From the NCBI GenBank assembly GCA_945881865.1, contig CAMCVK010000011.1, forward strand, positions 62,001 through 126,000: a stretch of DNA of 64,000 nucleotides. Direction: 5' to 3'. The notes under the pieces are model-generated. The model was not told where the DNA came from, made no database searches, and saw nothing but the letters and a program-made list of their open reading frames with translations. Positions 6,461 to 44,253 of the stretch are shown piece by piece. A program made the position numbers and the translations under genes. Source of the stretch: Fimbriimonas ginsengisoli Gsoil 348 (GTDB lineage Bacteria > Armatimonadota > Fimbriimonadia > Fimbriimonadales > Fimbriimonadaceae). Numbering within the stretch: position 1 is the stretch's first letter; every line of letters begins with the position of its first letter.

Positions 6461-7722
6461 TGTCCGGAACCCCGCGAAGCTACACGCTCCGTCCTGGTCG
6501 GCCCGAAGGCAAGGTCACCGTGAGCGGCGCGAAAAACAGCGTGCTCCGGCTTCTTGCCGCCTCACTTCTCACCAGCGAGCCAGTTAGCCTATCGAACTAC
6601 CCCAGCGGCCTGCTCGATGCCCAAATCCACGTCGGCATGCTCCGCATGCTCGGCAAGAGTTGCATCGTAAGGGAAAGTGAAATTCACATTACGGAGGGCT
6701 TTCCGGTTCCGGCGGCCCTCAACTGGACGGAAAGATCGATCCGGAACACCCTCCTGATTCTCGGCGCGATGGTCGCCCGGACCGGCGTTGGGGCCGTACC
6801 CGTGCCGGGCGGATGCCGCCTGGGGGATCGAAAGCATGATCTTCACGAGCTGGTTCTCACCTCGCTGGGGGCTAAAGTCTGGGTAGACCAAGAGGGTCGA
6901 CTCGCCGCCGAAGCACCCAACGGACTGACCGGTGCGGACATCCACCTGCCGATTCGAAGTACGGGCGCGACCGAGAACGCCATCATCTGTGGCTCGCTGG
7001 CCGCCGGAACCACCCGAATCTGGAACCCCCATGTGCGGCCCGAAATTCTGGATCTCGTTGCGTTCCTTCGACAGCTCGGGGCGAACATTGAGGTCTTCGG
7101 ACAGGAGCACATCGCTGTACACGGCGTCGACCGGCTCGGCGGCGGGACGCACCGGGTGATCGCCGACAATATGGAAGCACTCACGTGGGCGGTGGGTGCC
7201 GTGATCACCGGCGGCGACGTCGAGATCGAAAACTTTCCTTTTGGCGACCTAGAAGTTCCGCTCATTCATCTGCGGGAGAGCGGCGCGAAGTTCTATCGGG
7301 GCGAGAATTCGCTCATCGTCCGTGGCGGCCGACCGTATCCGGTCGAGATTAGTACCGGGCCCTACCCGGGCATCAACTCGGACATGCAGCCAATTTTCGC
7401 CGTCTACGGAGCGGCCGCTCGGGGAACGTCGAAAGTCATCGACCTGCGATTCCCGGGTCGGTATGCCTATGCGGATGAACTGCGGAAGCTCGGCGCCGAC
7501 GTTGTCTCTGAAGGCGACCTGCTGGTGATTCACGGCGGCAGACCGCTCGTTGGGTCGGACGTAATCGCCGTGGACCTCCGGGCGGGAATTGCCCTTGCTC
7601 TGGCCGGCCTCATCGCCGAAGGCGAGACGACGATCCACGACGCCTGGCAGATCGAGCGCGGCTACAACCAATTCATCCCAAAGCTGCGCGCTCTGGGTGC
7701 CAACGTCACCGTGACGCCCTGA
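6460..7722 (+). CDS. MurA-like UDP-N-acetylglucosamine 1-carboxyvinyltransferase (EPSP synthase family)
   Basis: This 420-residue protein has the length and motifs of MurA, which transfers enolpyruvate from PEP to UDP-GlcNAc in the cytoplasm. GAKN at residues 23-26 supplies the conserved Lys-Asn pair. GGCRLGDR (Cys119, Arg124) matches the catalytic Cys and nearby Arg of E. coli MurA, and SDMQ (Asp308) matches the conserved Asp. The enzyme therefore looks active rather than degenerate. Its place is odd: it is translationally coupled to a Wzz-like gene inside an exopolysaccharide cluster. It may be the housekeeping enzyme, a MurZ-type second copy, or one making a modified sugar for the polymer. 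It converges with the glycosyltransferase gene, overlapping by 17 bases. Confidence 0.85.
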   Translation: MSGTPRSYTLRPGRPEGKVTVSGAKNSVLRLLAASLLTSEPVSLSNYPSGLLDAQIHVGMLRMLGKSCIVRESEIHITEGFPVPAALNWTERSIRNTLLILGAMVARTGVGAVPVPGGCRLGDRKHDLHELVLTSLGAKVWVDQEGRLAAEAPNGLTGADIHLPIRSTGATENAIICGSLAAGTTRIWNPHVRPEILDLVAFLRQLGANIEVFGQEHIAVHGVDRLGGGTHRVIADNMEALTWAVGAVITGGDVEIENFPFGDLEVPLIHLRESGAKFYRGENSLIVRGGRPYPVEISTGPYPGINSDMQPIFAVYGAAARGTSKVIDLRFPGRYAYADELRKLGADVVSEGDLLVIHGGRPLVGSDVIAVDLRAGIALALAGLIAEGETTIHDAWQIERGYNQFIPKLRALGANVTVTP

Positions 7723-8911
7723 GGCGCGCCGAAAGCTGCGCCCGAAAACTTTTCGACATCATTGCCCTCAGGCCGCGCTTTGCCACGGCATAGGGCATCG
7801 CCGCGCGGATATTGGAGGCTGCAGGTACCCGGGCCGGGCCTCCATAGAGCGCCTCGTATGCGGCCAGCGAGTGTCGAACATCGAGAAAACGATCGGCATA
7901 ATCTGTGCCCAGGGCGGCCAAATCTTCTCGCACGCCTGGCTCAAAAAGAACGCGTTCCAGGTCGTCCACAAGCTGCGCCTGAGGAAGCGATGCCGCGTTT
8001 CGACCGCTGAAATTGAACTCCGCGAACGAGTCGATGTTGTCCTTCTGCACTAAGCCCGAATAGCCGTCTTTGTTCACCAAGAAGAGCGGGCAGCCAACGG
8101 CAAGGGCCTCGAACGCCGTCCGCCCCATGCCAAAAATGGCGTCCGCCATGCCCAGATAGGACTGCGCGTCCATGGCGACCGTTTCATCCGAGACGGCAAA
8201 CGGTACTTCGGCGCAGCGCGTTCGCACCTGCTCGGCCAATGCGGGAACGTCGGCGTAGCCGATGTGCACGAAGGTGACCTTTCGGCCGCGCTTGCGAAGC
8301 TCCGCCGCCGCGTCGATGCCCTCCAGAATGCCCCGCGTGTAGGCCGGACCGATACGGGCGATGCGGAGAATAATCTTGGCTTCCGGTTCGATCCCGTGCT
8401 TCCGTCGAAATTCAAGCCACTTTTCGCTGTTTTGCCTCGCCCGCAACTCGCCGGTATCAATACGCGCCGGAATGACCTGCACCTCTGCGGCGGGACAAAG
8501 CTCGCGAAGCTCCGCTTGGTTTTCGGAACTCAAACAAGTGAGCAGCGGTGGGTTAAGCCGTCGCATGAGCTTTAGCTCAAGCGGCTCTCGCACCGGCGGG
8601 CCGCCGCAACGAGTGTAAATCACTGGCTTGTCTCGCCTGACCCCGAGAGACGCTGATTCCACCAGGCCAAGCGTGCTGAACAAGTGGATTGCATCGAATT
8701 CCTCCCCGGTCTGTGCCGCGAGATCGGTCCGAAAGCGGTGCCGCACGCGCACCGGTGTAAAGCCGGCCCCGCGCACCACCGCGTCCGGCGACGCTTCGCC
8801 GATAAGAAAACGGATGTCGTGACCACGCGACCGCATGCCAGAAGCCAGCGTGACGGCGGTTCGGGTGTGTCCGCCCAACCCCGCATCCAGCACAACGTAG
8901 ACCAGCTTCAT
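7706..8911 (-). CDS. Glycosyltransferase, GT-B fold (GT4-like)
   Basis: About 401 residues with a GT-B layout. The N-terminal motif MKLVYVVLDAGLGGHTR with its glycine-rich loop starts the acceptor domain. The second half has LRIARIGPAYTRG, then a helix-strand pattern, GYADVP, and the donor-site region GRTAFEALAVGCPLFLVNKDG, similar to the E-x7-E region of GT4 enzymes. It would add a sugar from a nucleotide donor to the lipid-linked repeat unit at the inner membrane face. I start at ATG 8911 because the longer frame to 9055 is low-complexity and overlaps the divergent beta-propeller gene. Start codons of the two divergent genes are only 20 bases apart. Donor and acceptor sugars cannot be inferred. 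Confidence 0.85.
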   Translation of the reverse strand: MKLVYVVLDAGLGGHTRTAVTLASGMRSRGHDIRFLIGEASPDAVVRGAGFTPVRVRHRFRTDLAAQTGEEFDAIHLFSTLGLVESASLGVRRDKPVIYTRCGGPPVREPLELKLMRRLNPPLLTCLSSENQAELRELCPAAEVQVIPARIDTGELRARQNSEKWLEFRRKHGIEPEAKIILRIARIGPAYTRGILEGIDAAAELRKRGRKVTFVHIGYADVPALAEQVRTRCAEVPFAVSDETVAMDAQSYLGMADAIFGMGRTAFEALAVGCPLFLVNKDGYSGLVQKDNIDSFAEFNFSGRNAASLPQAQLVDDLERVLFEPGVREDLAALGTDYADRFLDVRHSLAAYEALYGGPARVPAASNIRAAMPYAVAKRGLRAMMSKSFRAQLSARLRASR

Positions 8912-8931
8912 CCGGGGCAGAGGGTACCGTC

Positions 8932-10122
8932 GTGCCTGTGGTTGCCTCTGGCACGTTTTTGTTTGACGCCCAGCGGTCGGGGCGGTCTCCGCACGCCATC
9001 GGGAACCTCCGCGAGCCGGATGTTTGCTGGCAAACGTGGCTTCGGGCCTATCCACCGTCCGGTGCGGAGTCCTCGGCGGGCTTCGATGCGGCCGGAAATC
9101 TCTATTTCGGCTCGCACAACGGCACGTTCTATTCCCTATCGCCAGCCGGGGAAATCCGGTGGGTCGCGCTATCGACGGCCAAGATCTACGGCAGCCCGTT
9201 GGTCCTCGCTGATCAAGTGATCTATACCAGCGGGGACGGATTTTGCCATTCTTTCTCCTTGAATGGCGAACTTCGGTGGCGGCTGGACCTACTGCCTGCC
9301 ATACGTAACGAATCGACCAGGATGCGAGTTTTGCGCGAACTTCGGGAGCTGCCGGACACGCTGGACTTTCGCCGCAAGTATCTCGTCACGACCAAAAGCT
9401 GGGCGTCGCCGGTTCAAGTTGGCCCGGAAACGGTCGTGGTCACCGGCTACGGCGCGGCCGTTCACGCGTTGGACTTCGATGGTGGACTTCAATGGAAATT
9501 CGATTTACCGGGGTCGGCCTACACGCTTTCTGGCGCTTGCGCCGACCCACAGGGCAACGTCTACGCCACGTCCTTCTTTGGTTACGGCTTTTGCCTTGGC
9601 CTCAACGGAAAGGAGAAATGGCGGGTTCGACTGCCTCGCGGGTACCGCAATTGGGCCTCACCGTCGTTCGATGTCCGGCTCGGCCAAGTTCTGTTCCCGA
9701 TGTCTCGCGGGGAAAGTGACGCGAAAATCTTTGCCGTCTCAAACGGTGCGATCCGGTGGGAATCGACCATTCCCGGCGGAGTGCGCGGTTCGGTCGTCTT
9801 CGCTGAAGACAGCTATCTGGTCGCCGGGCTGGACGGAAACCTTCGGTGGCTGGAGCCGAACTCCGGCCGCATCACCCGCACCGTGCGGCTATCCAAAGCC
9901 GAACGTGGTCTCTGGACCACGCCCGCCATCACCGCCGACGGCCGAATCCTCATCACGACGAAGCAAAGCAACCTCAAAGGCACGCTGGTTTGCCTGGAGC
10001 CAGACGGCGAGAAGCGGTGGGAAGTCGAGATCGGCAAGGCGCTCTCCGTGCCGGTGATCGATGCCGCTGGACGGGTCTACGTTGGCTCCTGGGACGGCAA
10101 CTACCGCTGTTTTCAAACTTAA
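8932..10122 (+). CDS. PQQ-like beta-propeller repeat protein
   Basis: GTG start; 396 residues. The chain is built of repeated blades in which a GxxxW/LxWxF pattern recurs (GEIRWVAL, GELRWRLDL, GGLQWKFDL, GKEKWRVRL, GEKRWEVEI), each followed by a 'spv.d..G.vYvgs.dG' strand. This is typical of PQQ_2/BamB-like eight-bladed propellers. The N-terminal FDAQRSGRSPH resembles the start of many PQQ-repeat proteins, which supports the start. No signal peptide is evident, so either it is cytoplasmic or the true start differs. No PQQ-enzyme catalytic residues are apparent. It may scaffold the EPS machinery, but nothing proves this. Confidence 0.8.
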   Translation: MPVVASGTFLFDAQRSGRSPHAIGNLREPDVCWQTWLRAYPPSGAESSAGFDAAGNLYFGSHNGTFYSLSPAGEIRWVALSTAKIYGSPLVLADQVIYTSGDGFCHSFSLNGELRWRLDLLPAIRNESTRMRVLRELRELPDTLDFRRKYLVTTKSWASPVQVGPETVVVTGYGAAVHALDFDGGLQWKFDLPGSAYTLSGACADPQGNVYATSFFGYGFCLGLNGKEKWRVRLPRGYRNWASPSFDVRLGQVLFPMSRGESDAKIFAVSNGAIRWESTIPGGVRGSVVFAEDSYLVAGLDGNLRWLEPNSGRITRTVRLSKAERGLWTTPAITADGRILITTKQSNLKGTLVCLEPDGEKRWEVEIGKALSVPVIDAAGRVYVGSWDGNYRCFQT

Positions 10123-38385: not shown

Positions 38386-39552
38386 ATGGCACTGCTTTCT
38401 GTCCTGGCGATGACGGCACTGTTACCGGCATCGGGCTACTCATTACAGGTTAAGCCGGCCGACGCGACCGCATTGCGCGTCCAGTCGATCGGTTTCGGCC
38501 CGACAACCACCGTTAACTGGAAGTTCCCCTACATCCGGTGGAGTTTTCAGCCGAAGCCGGAGACAGCTCAGATCACGGCCTTTGAAATGAAGGTGAACGG
38601 GAAAGTAGTGACGCCCGAGGCAGACCCACCCCGAAAGCAGTATCTCTACTCTCCTGTCGAAGGTTTCGGCCCGGGCAAATATGATGTCGAGTGCAAAGTA
38701 ACCCTTGACAACAAGGCATTTTTCCTTAAGAAGTTCTCCTTCCAAATTGGCGAAGGCGCAGAAAGCGTAGCTCCACCACCATCGGCAGCCCAGAAACTGG
38801 TCATGGACGAGGTCAACGCAATCCATCAGGAAATGGGCCACCCGCAGAGCATTCCCAATGACATCTTGAGCTACGTCGCGCAGAAACACTCTGATTATAT
38901 GGCCGCAAACGGAGCTTTGGTCCACGACCAGGTTGATGGCAAGCCTGGATTCTTCGGAGCGAACTCCATCGACCGGCTCGCCAACTATGGCATGACTAAT
39001 TTGGTTAACGAGGTACTTGGACACGACGCTGGAAACCTGAAGGCCACCGTGCGGGAGGTCTACCATGCCCCGTACCACCGCATTTCCTTCCTGGTTCCTG
39101 GCCCGGTTTGTTTAGGCGCGGGCATCAACAACGGGTTCATCACGATCTTGAACGGATCGCAGGTCCTCGACAAAACGATTCTGAGCGGACCGGCACCCGA
39201 CCAGAAGAACATTCCGTTGCAATGGGATTGCACCGAGAAGCCTAGCCCGCTGCGTAGCACGGGGAAAACCACGGGAATCACCGGCTACCCGGTTGTAGCT
39301 CTCATCTACGGGTACTTATTGCAGGATCTTTCGGACTTCACGTGCAGTCTGAAGCTAGACGGTAAAGATGTTCCGATGCTTTCGCTGACTCCTGGAAACG
39401 ACGAGTTTTTGAAGCGCGCCGTGATCATGATCCCGAACAACCCTCTACTTCCCAACCGCAAGTATGATGCTACTTTTTCCTGTAAAGTGAAGGATCAGGT
39501 GGTTTCGAAGGAGTGGTCCTTCACCACCGCGGCCAAATATTCGCTTAGGTAA
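38386..39552 (+). CDS. Secreted CAP-domain (SCP/YkwD-like) protein, copy 1
   Basis: 388 residues with a short hydrophobic N-terminus (ALLSVLAMTALLPASGYS), likely a signal peptide. A beta-sandwich-like region covers about residues 20-130. The CAP domain follows: MDEVNAIHQEMG, AQKHSDYMAANGALVHDQ and VREVYHAPYHRISFLVPG, comparable to YkwD-type 'lN..R...gl..l', 'A...a..Ma..g...H' and 'W..Sp.Hr.nil'. A C-terminal Ig-like part is beta-rich. Compared with copy 2 it gained a short extension: the stop TAA of copy 2 reads TAT here, so SLR is added before the next stop. It overlaps no other gene. Function unknown; likely cell-surface or secreted. Confidence 0.85.
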   Translation: MALLSVLAMTALLPASGYSLQVKPADATALRVQSIGFGPTTTVNWKFPYIRWSFQPKPETAQITAFEMKVNGKVVTPEADPPRKQYLYSPVEGFGPGKYDVECKVTLDNKAFFLKKFSFQIGEGAESVAPPPSAAQKLVMDEVNAIHQEMGHPQSIPNDILSYVAQKHSDYMAANGALVHDQVDGKPGFFGANSIDRLANYGMTNLVNEVLGHDAGNLKATVREVYHAPYHRISFLVPGPVCLGAGINNGFITILNGSQVLDKTILSGPAPDQKNIPLQWDCTEKPSPLRSTGKTTGITGYPVVALIYGYLLQDLSDFTCSLKLDGKDVPMLSLTPGNDEFLKRAVIMIPNNPLLPNRKYDATFSCKVKDQVVSKEWSFTTAAKYSLR

Positions 39553-39957: not shown

Positions 39958-41112
39958 ATGGGACTGCTTTCTATCCTGGCGATGACGGCACTGTTACCGG
40001 TGTCGGGCTACTCGTTGCAAGTTAAACCCGCCGACGCGACCGCATTGCGTGTCCAGTCGATCGGTTTCGGCCCAACAACCACCGTTAACTGGAAATTCCC
40101 CTACATTCGTTGGTGTTTCCAGCCGAAGCCAGAGACCGCACAGATCACCGCGTTCGAGATGAAAGTGAACGGGAAAGTTGTTACGCCCGAGGCAGACCCA
40201 CCCCGAAAGCAGTACCTCTACTCTCCTGCCGAAGGTTTCGGCCCCGGCAAATATGATGTCGAGTGCAAAGTAACCCTTGACAACAAGGCATTTTTCCTTA
40301 AGAAGTTCTCCTTCCAAATTGGCGAAGGCGCAGAAAGCGTAGCTCCACCACCATCGGCAGCCCAGAAGCTGGTCATGGACGAGGTCAACGCAATCTTTAA
40401 GGAGATGGGCTATCCGCAGAGCATTTCCAGCGACATCATGAGCTACGTCGCGCAGAAACACTCTGACTATATGGCCGCAAACGGAGCTTTGGTCCACGAC
40501 CAGGTTGATGGCAAGCCAGGATTCTTCGGAGCGAACTTCATCGACCGGCTCGCCGACTACGGCGTTACTTCTTTGACTAACGAGGTACTTGGACGCGACT
40601 CTGGAAACCTGAAGGCCACCGTGCGGGAGGTCTACCACGCCCCGTACCACCGCATTTCCTTCCTGGTTCCTGGCCCGGTTCACTTCGGTGCGGGCATCAA
40701 AAACGGATTCATCACGATCTTGAACGGATCCCAGGTCCTCGACAAAACGATTCTGAGCGGACCGGCACCCGACCAGAAGAACATTCCGTTGCAATGGGAT
40801 TGCACCGAGAAGCCTAGCCCGCTGCGAAGCATCGGTAAGACCACCGGCATCACCGGCTACCCGGTCGTGGCACTCGTCTACGGCTACCTGCTTCAGGATC
40901 TTTCCGACTTTAAATGCAGCCTAAAGTTGGACGGAAAGGACGTTCCGATGCTCTCGCTAACTCCGGCGAACGACGACTTTCTGAGGCGAGCGGTCGTGAT
41001 GATCCCGACCGATCCGTTACTCCCTAACCGCAAATATGACGCTACTTTTTCCTGCAAAGTGAAAGATCAGGTGATCTCTAAAGAGTGGTCCTTCACGACT
41101 GCGGCCAAATAA
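39958..41112 (+). CDS. Secreted CAP-domain (SCP/YkwD-like) protein, copy 2
   Basis: 384 residues, the tandem paralogue of the gene at 38386. Domain order is the same: signal segment, beta-rich N-terminal part, CAP-type helices (MDEVNAIFKEMGYPQS, HSDYMAANGALVHDQ, VREVYHAPYHRISF) and a beta-rich C-terminal part. Amino-acid changes cluster in the CAP-domain middle (NAIFKEMGYPQSISSD versus NAIHQEMGHPQSIPND) and in the C-terminal part, while two blocks are identical in DNA. It ends at a TAA, three codons earlier than copy 1. Function unknown; the two copies may have diverged in partner or ligand. Confidence 0.85.
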   Translation: MGLLSILAMTALLPVSGYSLQVKPADATALRVQSIGFGPTTTVNWKFPYIRWCFQPKPETAQITAFEMKVNGKVVTPEADPPRKQYLYSPAEGFGPGKYDVECKVTLDNKAFFLKKFSFQIGEGAESVAPPPSAAQKLVMDEVNAIFKEMGYPQSISSDIMSYVAQKHSDYMAANGALVHDQVDGKPGFFGANFIDRLADYGVTSLTNEVLGRDSGNLKATVREVYHAPYHRISFLVPGPVHFGAGIKNGFITILNGSQVLDKTILSGPAPDQKNIPLQWDCTEKPSPLRSIGKTTGITGYPVVALVYGYLLQDLSDFKCSLKLDGKDVPMLSLTPANDDFLRRAVVMIPTDPLLPNRKYDATFSCKVKDQVISKEWSFTTAAK

Positions 41113-41133: not shown

Positions 41134-42555
41134 ATGCGATTTTTCGCCTTGGGGGATCTGGGCTTCGCCTTCGATGCGCGGCTAGGATTTTTACGGCGCG
41201 CCCGGCATCAAGGACGACAGTTCTGTAACGCCGTCTACGTGGCCGTGCGGGATGAAAACTGGGGGACCCTCGATTTCCAAAATCAGACCTTAGACGTAGT
41301 CGAAACCACCGGGAAGATCGAACTGACATGGAAGGCAGAGTCGGTTAAGGACGGCGAGGTTTGGGCGACCTGGACGGTGAAGGTAAGCGCCGAGGCAGGA
41401 ACGCTTCGGTATCACGCCGTGGGAATCGCCACCAAGACCTTTCAAACGTGCCGCACCGGGGTTTGCCTGCTGCACCCGGTCGCCGAAACCCGTGGGCTGC
41501 CCGTTGAAGTGCGCCATCCGGACGGCGATCGGACCTCGGCAACTTTTCCCGTGGAAGTTTCGCCGCACCAGCCGTTCTCGAACGTTGCCGAACTGCACCA
41601 TGCGATCGGCCCCGAATCGGTTTTGGCCATCCGCTTTGGTGGCGTCGTTTTTGAGGCCGAAGACCAGCGTAATTGGACGGACTATAGTTATAAAACTTAT
41701 TGCAACCCGCTCGGGAGCGGGCGGGCAACGACCCTTCCGGCCGGTCACCGAATTGAGCACTCCGTAGAGTTCGCCGTCTCCTCGGGCAAGCCGAACTCCT
41801 GGATGCCGACGCCCGCGCCGTTTGCCCCACGCCGTCAGCCGATGCGCATCGGCCTTTTGGCCACGCAGACCACCGCCGAAGAACGGGTTTCCCTAGCGAG
41901 GATTCCCTGGGACCACATTGGCGTGGTGTTGCGGTCGGGCTTCGACGACGCCGAGCTGGCAAACGCTGGCCTTCTGGCAGAAAAGCTAAATGCCTCGCTA
42001 CGGGTGTTTTGGGACGGAGGTTTCTCGCAAGAAGATGCGCAGCGACTGGCGGCGGCCGCCCCGCGCGAAATCGCCCTGCGAGACTTCTCGGTTGCAGTCG
42101 ACCCAGAGTGGCGAAAGGTGTTGGGCAAGACAGCATTCCTGACCATGTCGGCCGACAACTTTACCGAGCTCAACCGATCGCGGCCGCACCTGCGGGCAGT
42201 ACCCTACGACGGCGTCGGCTTTGCGGCAAATCCGCAGGTACACGCCTTCGACGAAGTGTCGATCCTGGAAACGCCAACGACTTTTGCCGATATTGTTTCC
42301 ACGATAGAGAAGCAAACGGCGTTGCCCATTTACGTTGGCCCGGTCACTTTCGAGCCGCGCGGACTGGAGCCGCAGCCCCTCGTCGAAGAACGTCTTAGGG
42401 TGTTCGCCCGGTACATCGAGGACAGCGTCAAAGTGCTCCGGCGAACCAATGTCGCCAGCGTCACCCTTGGTCCGGCGACCGGTTTTCGAGGATTTCTCCA
42501 GCCTTCAGGTGAACTGTTGCACGATCCTCAGGAATTTACGGACTGGCTACGGTAA
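41134..42555 (+). CDS. D-apionate lactonase-like protein (ApnL family candidate)
   Basis: 473 residues, no signal peptide. Motifs that I recall from D-apionate lactonase ApnL are present: VYVAVRDENWGTL near the N-terminus, TGVCLLHP in the middle and FEAEDQRNWTDYSYKTYCNPL. The C-terminal half looks like a TIM-barrel region. ApnL opens D-apionolactone to D-apionate, which is then oxidised. The next two genes match the following steps, which strengthens the call. The first 44 bases of the gene also appear at the junction of the tandem repeat. No clear ribosome-binding site is seen before the ATG. Confidence 0.6.
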   Translation: MRFFALGDLGFAFDARLGFLRRARHQGRQFCNAVYVAVRDENWGTLDFQNQTLDVVETTGKIELTWKAESVKDGEVWATWTVKVSAEAGTLRYHAVGIATKTFQTCRTGVCLLHPVAETRGLPVEVRHPDGDRTSATFPVEVSPHQPFSNVAELHHAIGPESVLAIRFGGVVFEAEDQRNWTDYSYKTYCNPLGSGRATTLPAGHRIEHSVEFAVSSGKPNSWMPTPAPFAPRRQPMRIGLLATQTTAEERVSLARIPWDHIGVVLRSGFDDAELANAGLLAEKLNASLRVFWDGGFSQEDAQRLAAAAPREIALRDFSVAVDPEWRKVLGKTAFLTMSADNFTELNRSRPHLRAVPYDGVGFAANPQVHAFDEVSILETPTTFADIVSTIEKQTALPIYVGPVTFEPRGLEPQPLVEERLRVFARYIEDSVKVLRRTNVASVTLGPATGFRGFLQPSGELLHDPQEFTDWLR

Positions 42556-42564
42556 AACCGTTCG

Positions 42565-43407
42565 GTGGTTCGTATTGCGTTGTTTGGGGCGGGGGGAAAA
42601 ATGGGCATGCGCCTGACCCGAAACCTAACGGAGAGTTCCGGCTATTCAGTGGCTTATGTTGAGCCCGGGGCCGAAGGAGCGGCGCGCCTCGCGACGCTTG
42701 GCATTTCGCCAACGTTAGCCGACGAGGCTTTGTCCGACGCCGAAGTCGTCATTCTGGCGCTGCCGGACGCACATCTGGGAGCGATTAGCGAGGAATTGGT
42801 GCCCAACATGGCCACCGGAGCGATGCTGGTGACCCTTGACCCCGCCGCCGCCCATGCCGGAGTGCTGGCGCACCGAGACGACCTCGCGTACTTTGTGACG
42901 CATCCCTGCCACCCGCCGGTGTTTAACGATGAGACCGGCGAAGCGAAGAAGGATTTCTTTGGCGGGGTGCTCGCGAAGCAGGCGATCGTCTGCGCCCTGA
43001 TGCAAGGTTCCGAGGACGATTACGCCCGCGGTGCCGCCCTTGCCGAAGCGATGTATGCACCGGTGATGCGATCCCACCGGGTATCGGTTGAGCAGATGGC
43101 AATTTTGGAACCGGCAATGGCCGAGACCGTGACCGCGTGTTGCATCACCATCATTCGCGAGGCCATGGACGAAGCGATTCGACGGGGCGTACCGGCGGAA
43201 GCAGCGCGGGACTTCATGCTGGGTCACGTGAACATCCCGCTCGCCATCGTGTTTGGCGAAGTGGATTCGCCGTTTAGCGACGGAGCGAAGCTCATCATTG
43301 AGCACGGCCGCCGACAAATTTTTCGGGAAGATTGGAAGAAAGTGTTCGAACCGGAATCCGTCCGAGACCAGGTGAGGGCCATTGTTGAAAACCGAACTCC
43401 CGCCTAG
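42565..43407 (+). CDS. D-apionate oxidoisomerase-like dehydrogenase (ApnO family candidate)
   Basis: 280 residues, GTG start. The N-terminal IALFGAGGKMGMRL is a Rossmann NAD-binding motif. The second half carries the phosphogluconate-dehydrogenase-like C-terminal domain with HPCHPPVFNDETGEAKKDFFGG (in parts), CALMQGSEDDY and HRVSVEQMAILEPAMAETV, then RGVPAEAARDFMLGHVNI. This domain group includes ApnO, which oxidises and isomerises D-apionate to 3-oxo-isoapionate with NAD. Nine bases separate it from the upstream gene. A related sugar-acid dehydrogenase is the alternative. Confidence 0.65.
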   Translation: MVRIALFGAGGKMGMRLTRNLTESSGYSVAYVEPGAEGAARLATLGISPTLADEALSDAEVVILALPDAHLGAISEELVPNMATGAMLVTLDPAAAHAGVLAHRDDLAYFVTHPCHPPVFNDETGEAKKDFFGGVLAKQAIVCALMQGSEDDYARGAALAEAMYAPVMRSHRVSVEQMAILEPAMAETVTACCITIIREAMDEAIRRGVPAEAARDFMLGHVNIPLAIVFGEVDSPFSDGAKLIIEHGRRQIFREDWKKVFEPESVRDQVRAIVENRTPA

Positions 43408-43437
43408 GCCAACGGCGTTGTGCTTGGCGGTGACGAA

Positions 43438-44253
43438 ATGAAGTTCGGAATCGGCAGCTATACCTACGCTTGGAACATCGGAATTCCCGGCTTCACGTCG
43501 CCGGAGCAACCGATGGACGCCTTCGGACTTTTGCGCACGGGCATCCGCCAGGGCGTGGACGTGATTCAGTACTGCGAGAACTTGCCTCTTACCGACCTCT
43601 CGGGGTCTGCGTTGCAGGATCTGCATGCCGAGGCCAGCCAACACAATGTCTCGATTGAGGTGGGAACCCGCGGTATCGACGCGGCGGAGATCCACAAGTT
43701 GGCGGAACTTGCCAACCAGTTTGGGTCGGGTTTTGTCCGATTGGTGATCGATACCGAGCAGTCGAAGCCTTCTCCAAGCGAAATCGTCAACCTGCTGTCA
43801 CCTATCCTTCAGGGAATGGGCGGCGTTCGCCTCGCCATTGAAAACCACGACCGCATCTCCGTGTGGGTTCTTGCCTGTATCGTCGAGGAGCTTGGAGCTT
43901 CGGTCTGCCTCGACACCGCAAATTCTTTGGGAACCATGGAGGGCGTGAATGAGGTCGTGGCCGCGCTCGCCCCGTATGCCGCTTGCCTTCACTTGAAGGA
44001 CGTCAAGGTGGAACGCGCCGCCGCGAACCTCGGCCTAAACGTTCGTGGAACCGCGCTGGGCGCCGGGCAGCTCGACATCCTCTGGGCGCTTCGCGAGATA
44101 GGCCAGGCAGAAAACTGCGAGAGCGTCATCGTCGAACTGTGGCCCGAGTGGCAAGGCGAGGCGACACTCGCGACCGAACGCGCCATGGCCGAAGCAAGCT
44201 TTCGCCAGTTAACTCATTTTGGAGAATTTCGGTCAGGTTGGCAACTCGCTTAA
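43438..44253 (+). CDS. Sugar phosphate isomerase/epimerase-like TIM barrel (OiaC-type 3-oxo-isoapionate decarboxylase candidate)
   Basis: 271 residues. ATG 43438 is preceded by GGCGGTGA, a good ribosome-binding site, and fits the start FGIGSYTYAWNIGIPG. The xylose-isomerase-like TIM barrel has metal-ligand motifs IEVGTRGI, LAIENHDR, VCLDTANSLG and LHLKDVKV. OiaC, which decarboxylates 3-oxo-isoapionate to L-erythrulose, belongs to this fold and shares the GTRGI, ENHDR and LDT-NS patterns as I recall them. Following the ApnL-like and ApnO-like genes, a three-step D-apionolactone to L-erythrulose route is plausible. The fold call is firm; the exact enzyme is inference. Confidence 0.7.
   Translation: MKFGIGSYTYAWNIGIPGFTSPEQPMDAFGLLRTGIRQGVDVIQYCENLPLTDLSGSALQDLHAEASQHNVSIEVGTRGIDAAEIHKLAELANQFGSGFVRLVIDTEQSKPSPSEIVNLLSPILQGMGGVRLAIENHDRISVWVLACIVEELGASVCLDTANSLGTMEGVNEVVAALAPYAACLHLKDVKVERAAANLGLNVRGTALGAGQLDILWALREIGQAENCESVIVELWPEWQGEATLATERAMAEASFRQLTHFGEFRSGWQLA

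Follow-up and report, generated by a model that had tools for sequence, protein, structure and literature searches.

A probable core set of oxidative D-apiose pathway genes, and dispersed candidates for other steps, in the genome of Fimbriimonas ginsengisoli (Armatimonadota)

Introduction

Plant cell walls contain the rare branched sugar apiose. An oxidative D-apiose pathway with the enzymes ApnL, ApnO and OiaC was reportedly described by Carter et al. in 2018, and the pathway chemistry considered here comes from that work. Does the stretch of 64,000 nucleotides analysed here (the window) carry part of such a pathway and, if so, where in the genome are the other steps encoded? The question was raised by an earlier note, made from the letters of the window, which claimed three adjacent ApnL-, ApnO- and OiaC-like genes, read them as a cluster for D-apionate catabolism and placed the earlier steps elsewhere in the genome.

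Results

Three co-directional open reading frames occupy 41134-44253 of the plus strand, where the earlier note had put them. The apnL-like gene (41134-42555, plus strand) encodes a 473-residue protein of the D-apionate lactonase family in a short form, the family model having 595 positions. After a gap of 9 nt follows apnO (42565-43407, plus strand; GTG start), which encodes a D-apionate oxidoisomerase-type NAD(P)-dependent dehydrogenase of 280 residues, and after a further 30 nt the oiaC-like gene (43438-44253, plus strand), whose 271-residue product is a candidate 3-oxo-isoapionate decarboxylase with a xylose-isomerase-like TIM barrel. The most likely start of the oiaC-like gene is the ATG at 43438 and not the GTG at 43420, because homologues align from that methionine. 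A survey of open reading frames and Pfam matches adjoining the triad revealed no transporter, regulator or apiose dehydrogenase gene, as the earlier note had also observed. Between prfC and apnL lie two tandem genes (38386-39552 and 39958-41112) whose proteins are 92% identical; neither has any Pfam match, and the pair has no counterpart in the prfC regions of the related genomes G013 and G014.

The ApnO protein matched PF16896 with 215 bits (E 7e-64; cut-off 25) and its N-terminal part matched F420_oxidored/NAD_binding_2, i.e. it combines a Rossmann NAD(P) domain with a PF16896 C-terminal domain. It retains the GxGGxxG motif (G8-x-GGxxG14) and 50+ invariant residues, and is a close relative of PDB entries 5t57 and 3c24. 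Its nearest homologues are 58-68% identical (nearest named relative L021, at 68%, which suggests Armatimonadota as the lineage), and several of them adjoin apiosidases or oiaC. A tree of ApnO proteins groups the window protein with those of Armatimonadota, Cohnella and spirochaetes, with the Bacteroidota proteins as sister. This joint clade has 32 other rows, and for 27 of them at least one partner (ApnL, OiaC or the dehydrogenase) is encoded nearby, which marks the clade as linked to apionate or apiose. Most Rhizobiales rows in the tree have no partner nearby, and many Rhizobiales homologues (51-57% identical) have none within 8 kb. At L048, L065, L069 and similar Rhizobiales loci (Bosea and others), PF16896 proteins 54-57% identical to the window protein are encoded with apnL, oiaC and dehydrogenase genes absent within 8 kb.

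PF16896 bears the name of a 6-phosphogluconate dehydrogenase. We rejected that identity for the second gene, as its nearest homologues sit among apiose genes.

We examined ApnO homologues from 80 genome loci for partner genes. The ApnL, ApnO and OiaC families occur together in related genomes, in Bacteroidota and in KSB1, and two of the three do so in Cohnella. Because the same three families keep company in other genomes, the triad is more than a chance grouping; together with the reading frames and the NF049900 and PF16896 matches, this recurrence confirms the earlier claim of three adjacent ApnL-, ApnO- and OiaC-like genes. The set is often joined by a Gfo/Idh/MocA dehydrogenase gene, as at the Bacteroidota and KSB1 loci, and sometimes by PF13204 apiosidase genes. 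L022 shows the same order, apnL-apnO-oiaC, with gene ends touching, and L118 has, in this order, apnO, oiaC and the dehydrogenase. L117 belongs to G027, a genome from the family of the window genome, and has the order apnL, dehydrogenase, apnO, oiaC; it resembles the window in carrying all three triad genes on the same strand, with an ApnO 65% identical, but has the dehydrogenase inside the cluster, whereas that of the window genome lies on another contig. At L099 (KSB1) and L029 the clusters hold the same dehydrogenase together with a RhaT-like transporter and a PF13204 apiosidase. At a spirochaete locus (L026, 1367-6365), three consecutive PF13204 genes stand directly upstream of an apnO whose product is 58% identical, with no ApnL, OiaC or dehydrogenase nearby.

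The oiaC-like protein had a weak Pfam match (37 bits) to the AP_endonuc_2 TIM barrel and shares 32-42% identity with 19 proteins whose genes lie near apnO at other loci. A metal-binding tetrad (E135, D159, H185 and E233) is invariant in the alignment. The predicted model (pLDDT 92) resembles sugar epimerases and isomerases, the best being Art22 (Z 26), and superposes on 8z1i with Z 26.1 and rmsd 2.4 over 241 residues. The protein is therefore a metal-binding, xylose-isomerase-like TIM barrel by alignment and predicted fold. Against NCBIfam it matched no OiaC model and gave weak generic matches.

The ApnL-like protein matched the NCBIfam ApnL model NF049900 with 168 bits (E 3e-49), far below the curated equivalog cut-off of 750 bits, and so is not a member by that measure; pathway-linked Bacteroidota ApnL-like proteins also fall under 750 bits, at 304 and 318. 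The earlier note had proposed a search against the three family models: gene 2 was borne out by PF16896, ApnL was matched short of its cut-off, and no OiaC model was hit. Over 20 ApnL-like sequences E174, E176, D177, R179, N180, W181, D183, S185, K187 and Y189 are invariant, and the window protein carries the E-x-EDQRNW-D-S-K-Y block of residues invariant in ApnL-like proteins encoded near apnO. Its predicted model (pLDDT 83) has a mutarotase-like beta-sandwich (1-217), which resembles a galactose-mutarotase or beta-galactosidase domain (Z about 14-15), followed by a TIM-type barrel (227-473) closest to GH10 and GH39 (Z about 14-15). The invariant residues lie mostly within the sandwich. Searched as a profile against the PDB, ApnL had no match. 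For neither of these two proteins does likeness of predicted fold show function.

The window gene is the single ApnL found in its genome. In the ApnL tree its product groups with orphan proteins of G013 and G014 (98/90); next closest are the proteins of L022 and L117, whose genes are in direct linkage with apnO and oiaC. Of 19 same-genus genomes 13 carry an ApnL-like gene, and in none of these 13 is ApnO, OiaC or the dehydrogenase strongly matched, so that their ApnL-like genes are orphans. Such an orphan lies directly 3' of prfC in G013 and G014, where prfC is 78% identical to its counterpart in the window, and in the window, too, apnL is downstream of prfC. Since these prfC-adjacent orphans group with the window protein, ApnL could have had an older role at this place. 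Orphan ApnL-like genes immediately 3' of prfC are at L120 (6218-7642) and L121 (6252-7550), in two same-genus genomes without apnO and oiaC.

A search of the window genome (G000) with the dehydrogenase of the KSB1 operon put a Gfo/Idh/MocA dehydrogenase gene on another contig, outside the window (G000:C1:414403-415401), far ahead of all others (E 2e-73; next 9e-19). Its product falls inside the apnO-linked, i.e. pathway-linked, dehydrogenase clade (95/95), with five sampled paralogues from the same genome outside, as an orthologue should. Among 61 relatives, strong matches to it occur in G000, G020 and G027 only, the very three in which ApnO and OiaC are strongly matched. Because the dehydrogenase gene is linked to the other genes in G020 and G027 and unlinked in G000, it is G000 that makes the informative case of co-occurrence; by our own reckoning over the 59 other genomes, which ignores kinship, chance would produce this coincidence about 1 time in 59. 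Another Gfo/Idh gene, at G000:C11:61312 immediately before the window, was rejected as the pathway dehydrogenase, being a paralogue of 25-29% identity outside the clade. Two strong PF13204 apiosidase-type glycosidase genes were also located in the genome; with the unlinked dehydrogenase gene they bear out the earlier suggestion that preceding steps are encoded elsewhere. A transporter like the RhaT-like one of L099 had no match in the window genome in a search run without a positive control, a result of little weight, and the genome yielded no DAK-type L-erythrulose kinase in a search whose controls matched.

Discussion

We consider it probable that the triad is the core of an oxidative D-apiose pathway whose remaining genes are dispersed over the genome. 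In such a pathway the two PF13204 glycosidases could free apiose, the contig C1 dehydrogenase would convert D-apiose to D-apionolactone, and the apnL product would hydrolyse this to D-apionate. The apnO product would then oxidise and isomerise D-apionate to 3-oxo-isoapionate with NAD(P), and the oiaC product, with a bound divalent metal, would decarboxylate that to L-erythrulose. We infer these substrates and products, and likewise which way the flux runs and what becomes of L-erythrulose. Family matches, the neighbourhoods with apiosidases and dehydrogenase, and co-occurrence across relatives support D-apionate catabolism as the likely role, as first proposed from the sequence. Speaking against the pathway are the low NF049900 score of ApnL, its grouping with two of the orphans that are frequent in the genus, the many Rhizobiales ApnO homologues that have no partner close by, and the lack of a match to a RhaT-like transporter or a DAK kinase in the genome.

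The same families would also serve if the triad degraded another sugar acid (a branched or C5 aldonate or lactone), apiose being merely the best-known substrate. The ApnL score under the equivalog cut-off, PF16896 proteins of similar identity without apiose partners and the 32-42% identity of the OiaC-like protein to linked proteins would fit this, but the linked apiosidases of KSB1, Bacteroidota and the spirochaete, and the shared dehydrogenase, tie the ApnO clade to apiose, and we find such a substrate improbable. Somewhat less improbable, though still unlikely, is that ApnO and OiaC serve apionate while the ApnL-like protein is an old resident after prfC that acts on another lactone or sugar, apnO and oiaC having arrived beside it. 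The post-prfC orphans of G013 and G014, their grouping with the window protein and the frequency of orphans in the genus favour this; however, the apnL-like genes next closest to it stand in direct linkage with apnO and oiaC, and the genome has no second ApnL that we found. That the genes are chance neighbours, e.g. a 6-phosphogluconate dehydrogenase beside a sugar isomerase, accords with the generic Pfam names of genes 2 and 3 but hardly with the same set in distant phyla and its co-occurrence across relatives; we give it next to no credence.

The locus, read as the core of an apiose pathway, is ordinary in kind, the pathway itself being already known, and well supported in substance. Membership of the gene families, conservation of linkage, co-occurrence, position in the trees and predicted folds are all observed. 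The window genome agrees with the oxidative D-apiose pathway (Carter et al. 2018) in having lactonase, oxidoisomerase and TIM-barrel families together and a Gfo/Idh/MocA-type dehydrogenase, and apiosidases occur in related operons. It differs in that dehydrogenase and glycosidases are unlinked, ApnL is short, no transporter or regulator adjoins the triad, and the downstream kinase was not found in the genome. Growth on D-apiose has been shown for Rhodobacteraceae strain LCG007, which has related genes; the description of its apiose cluster names D-apionolactonase, apiose dehydrogenase and D-apionate oxidoisomerase, but has a 3-oxoisoapionate kinase plus a phosphate decarboxylase in place of a direct OiaC step (PMC11747546).

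Our literature search found no paper on apiose in Armatimonadota. We put forward only tentatively, and with some doubt, that this phylum has the oxidative apiose pathway complete but scattered over the genome and with a short lactonase, alongside an orphan ApnL-type protein that is widespread in the genus. If true, D-apiose use would extend to a little-studied lineage, and the pathway could be split over a genome, so that cluster-based screens would miss such cases. For each step, co-occurrence names partners that can be tested.

Within the genus, PF13204 genes commonly occur in the absence of ApnO and therefore support plant-glycan use generally, not the apiose pathway in particular. In the window's own genome, at L139, a GH95 gene (6480-8696) is followed by a PF13204 apiosidase-type gene (8597-10021), a pair that is suggestive of rhamnogalacturonan-II degradation.
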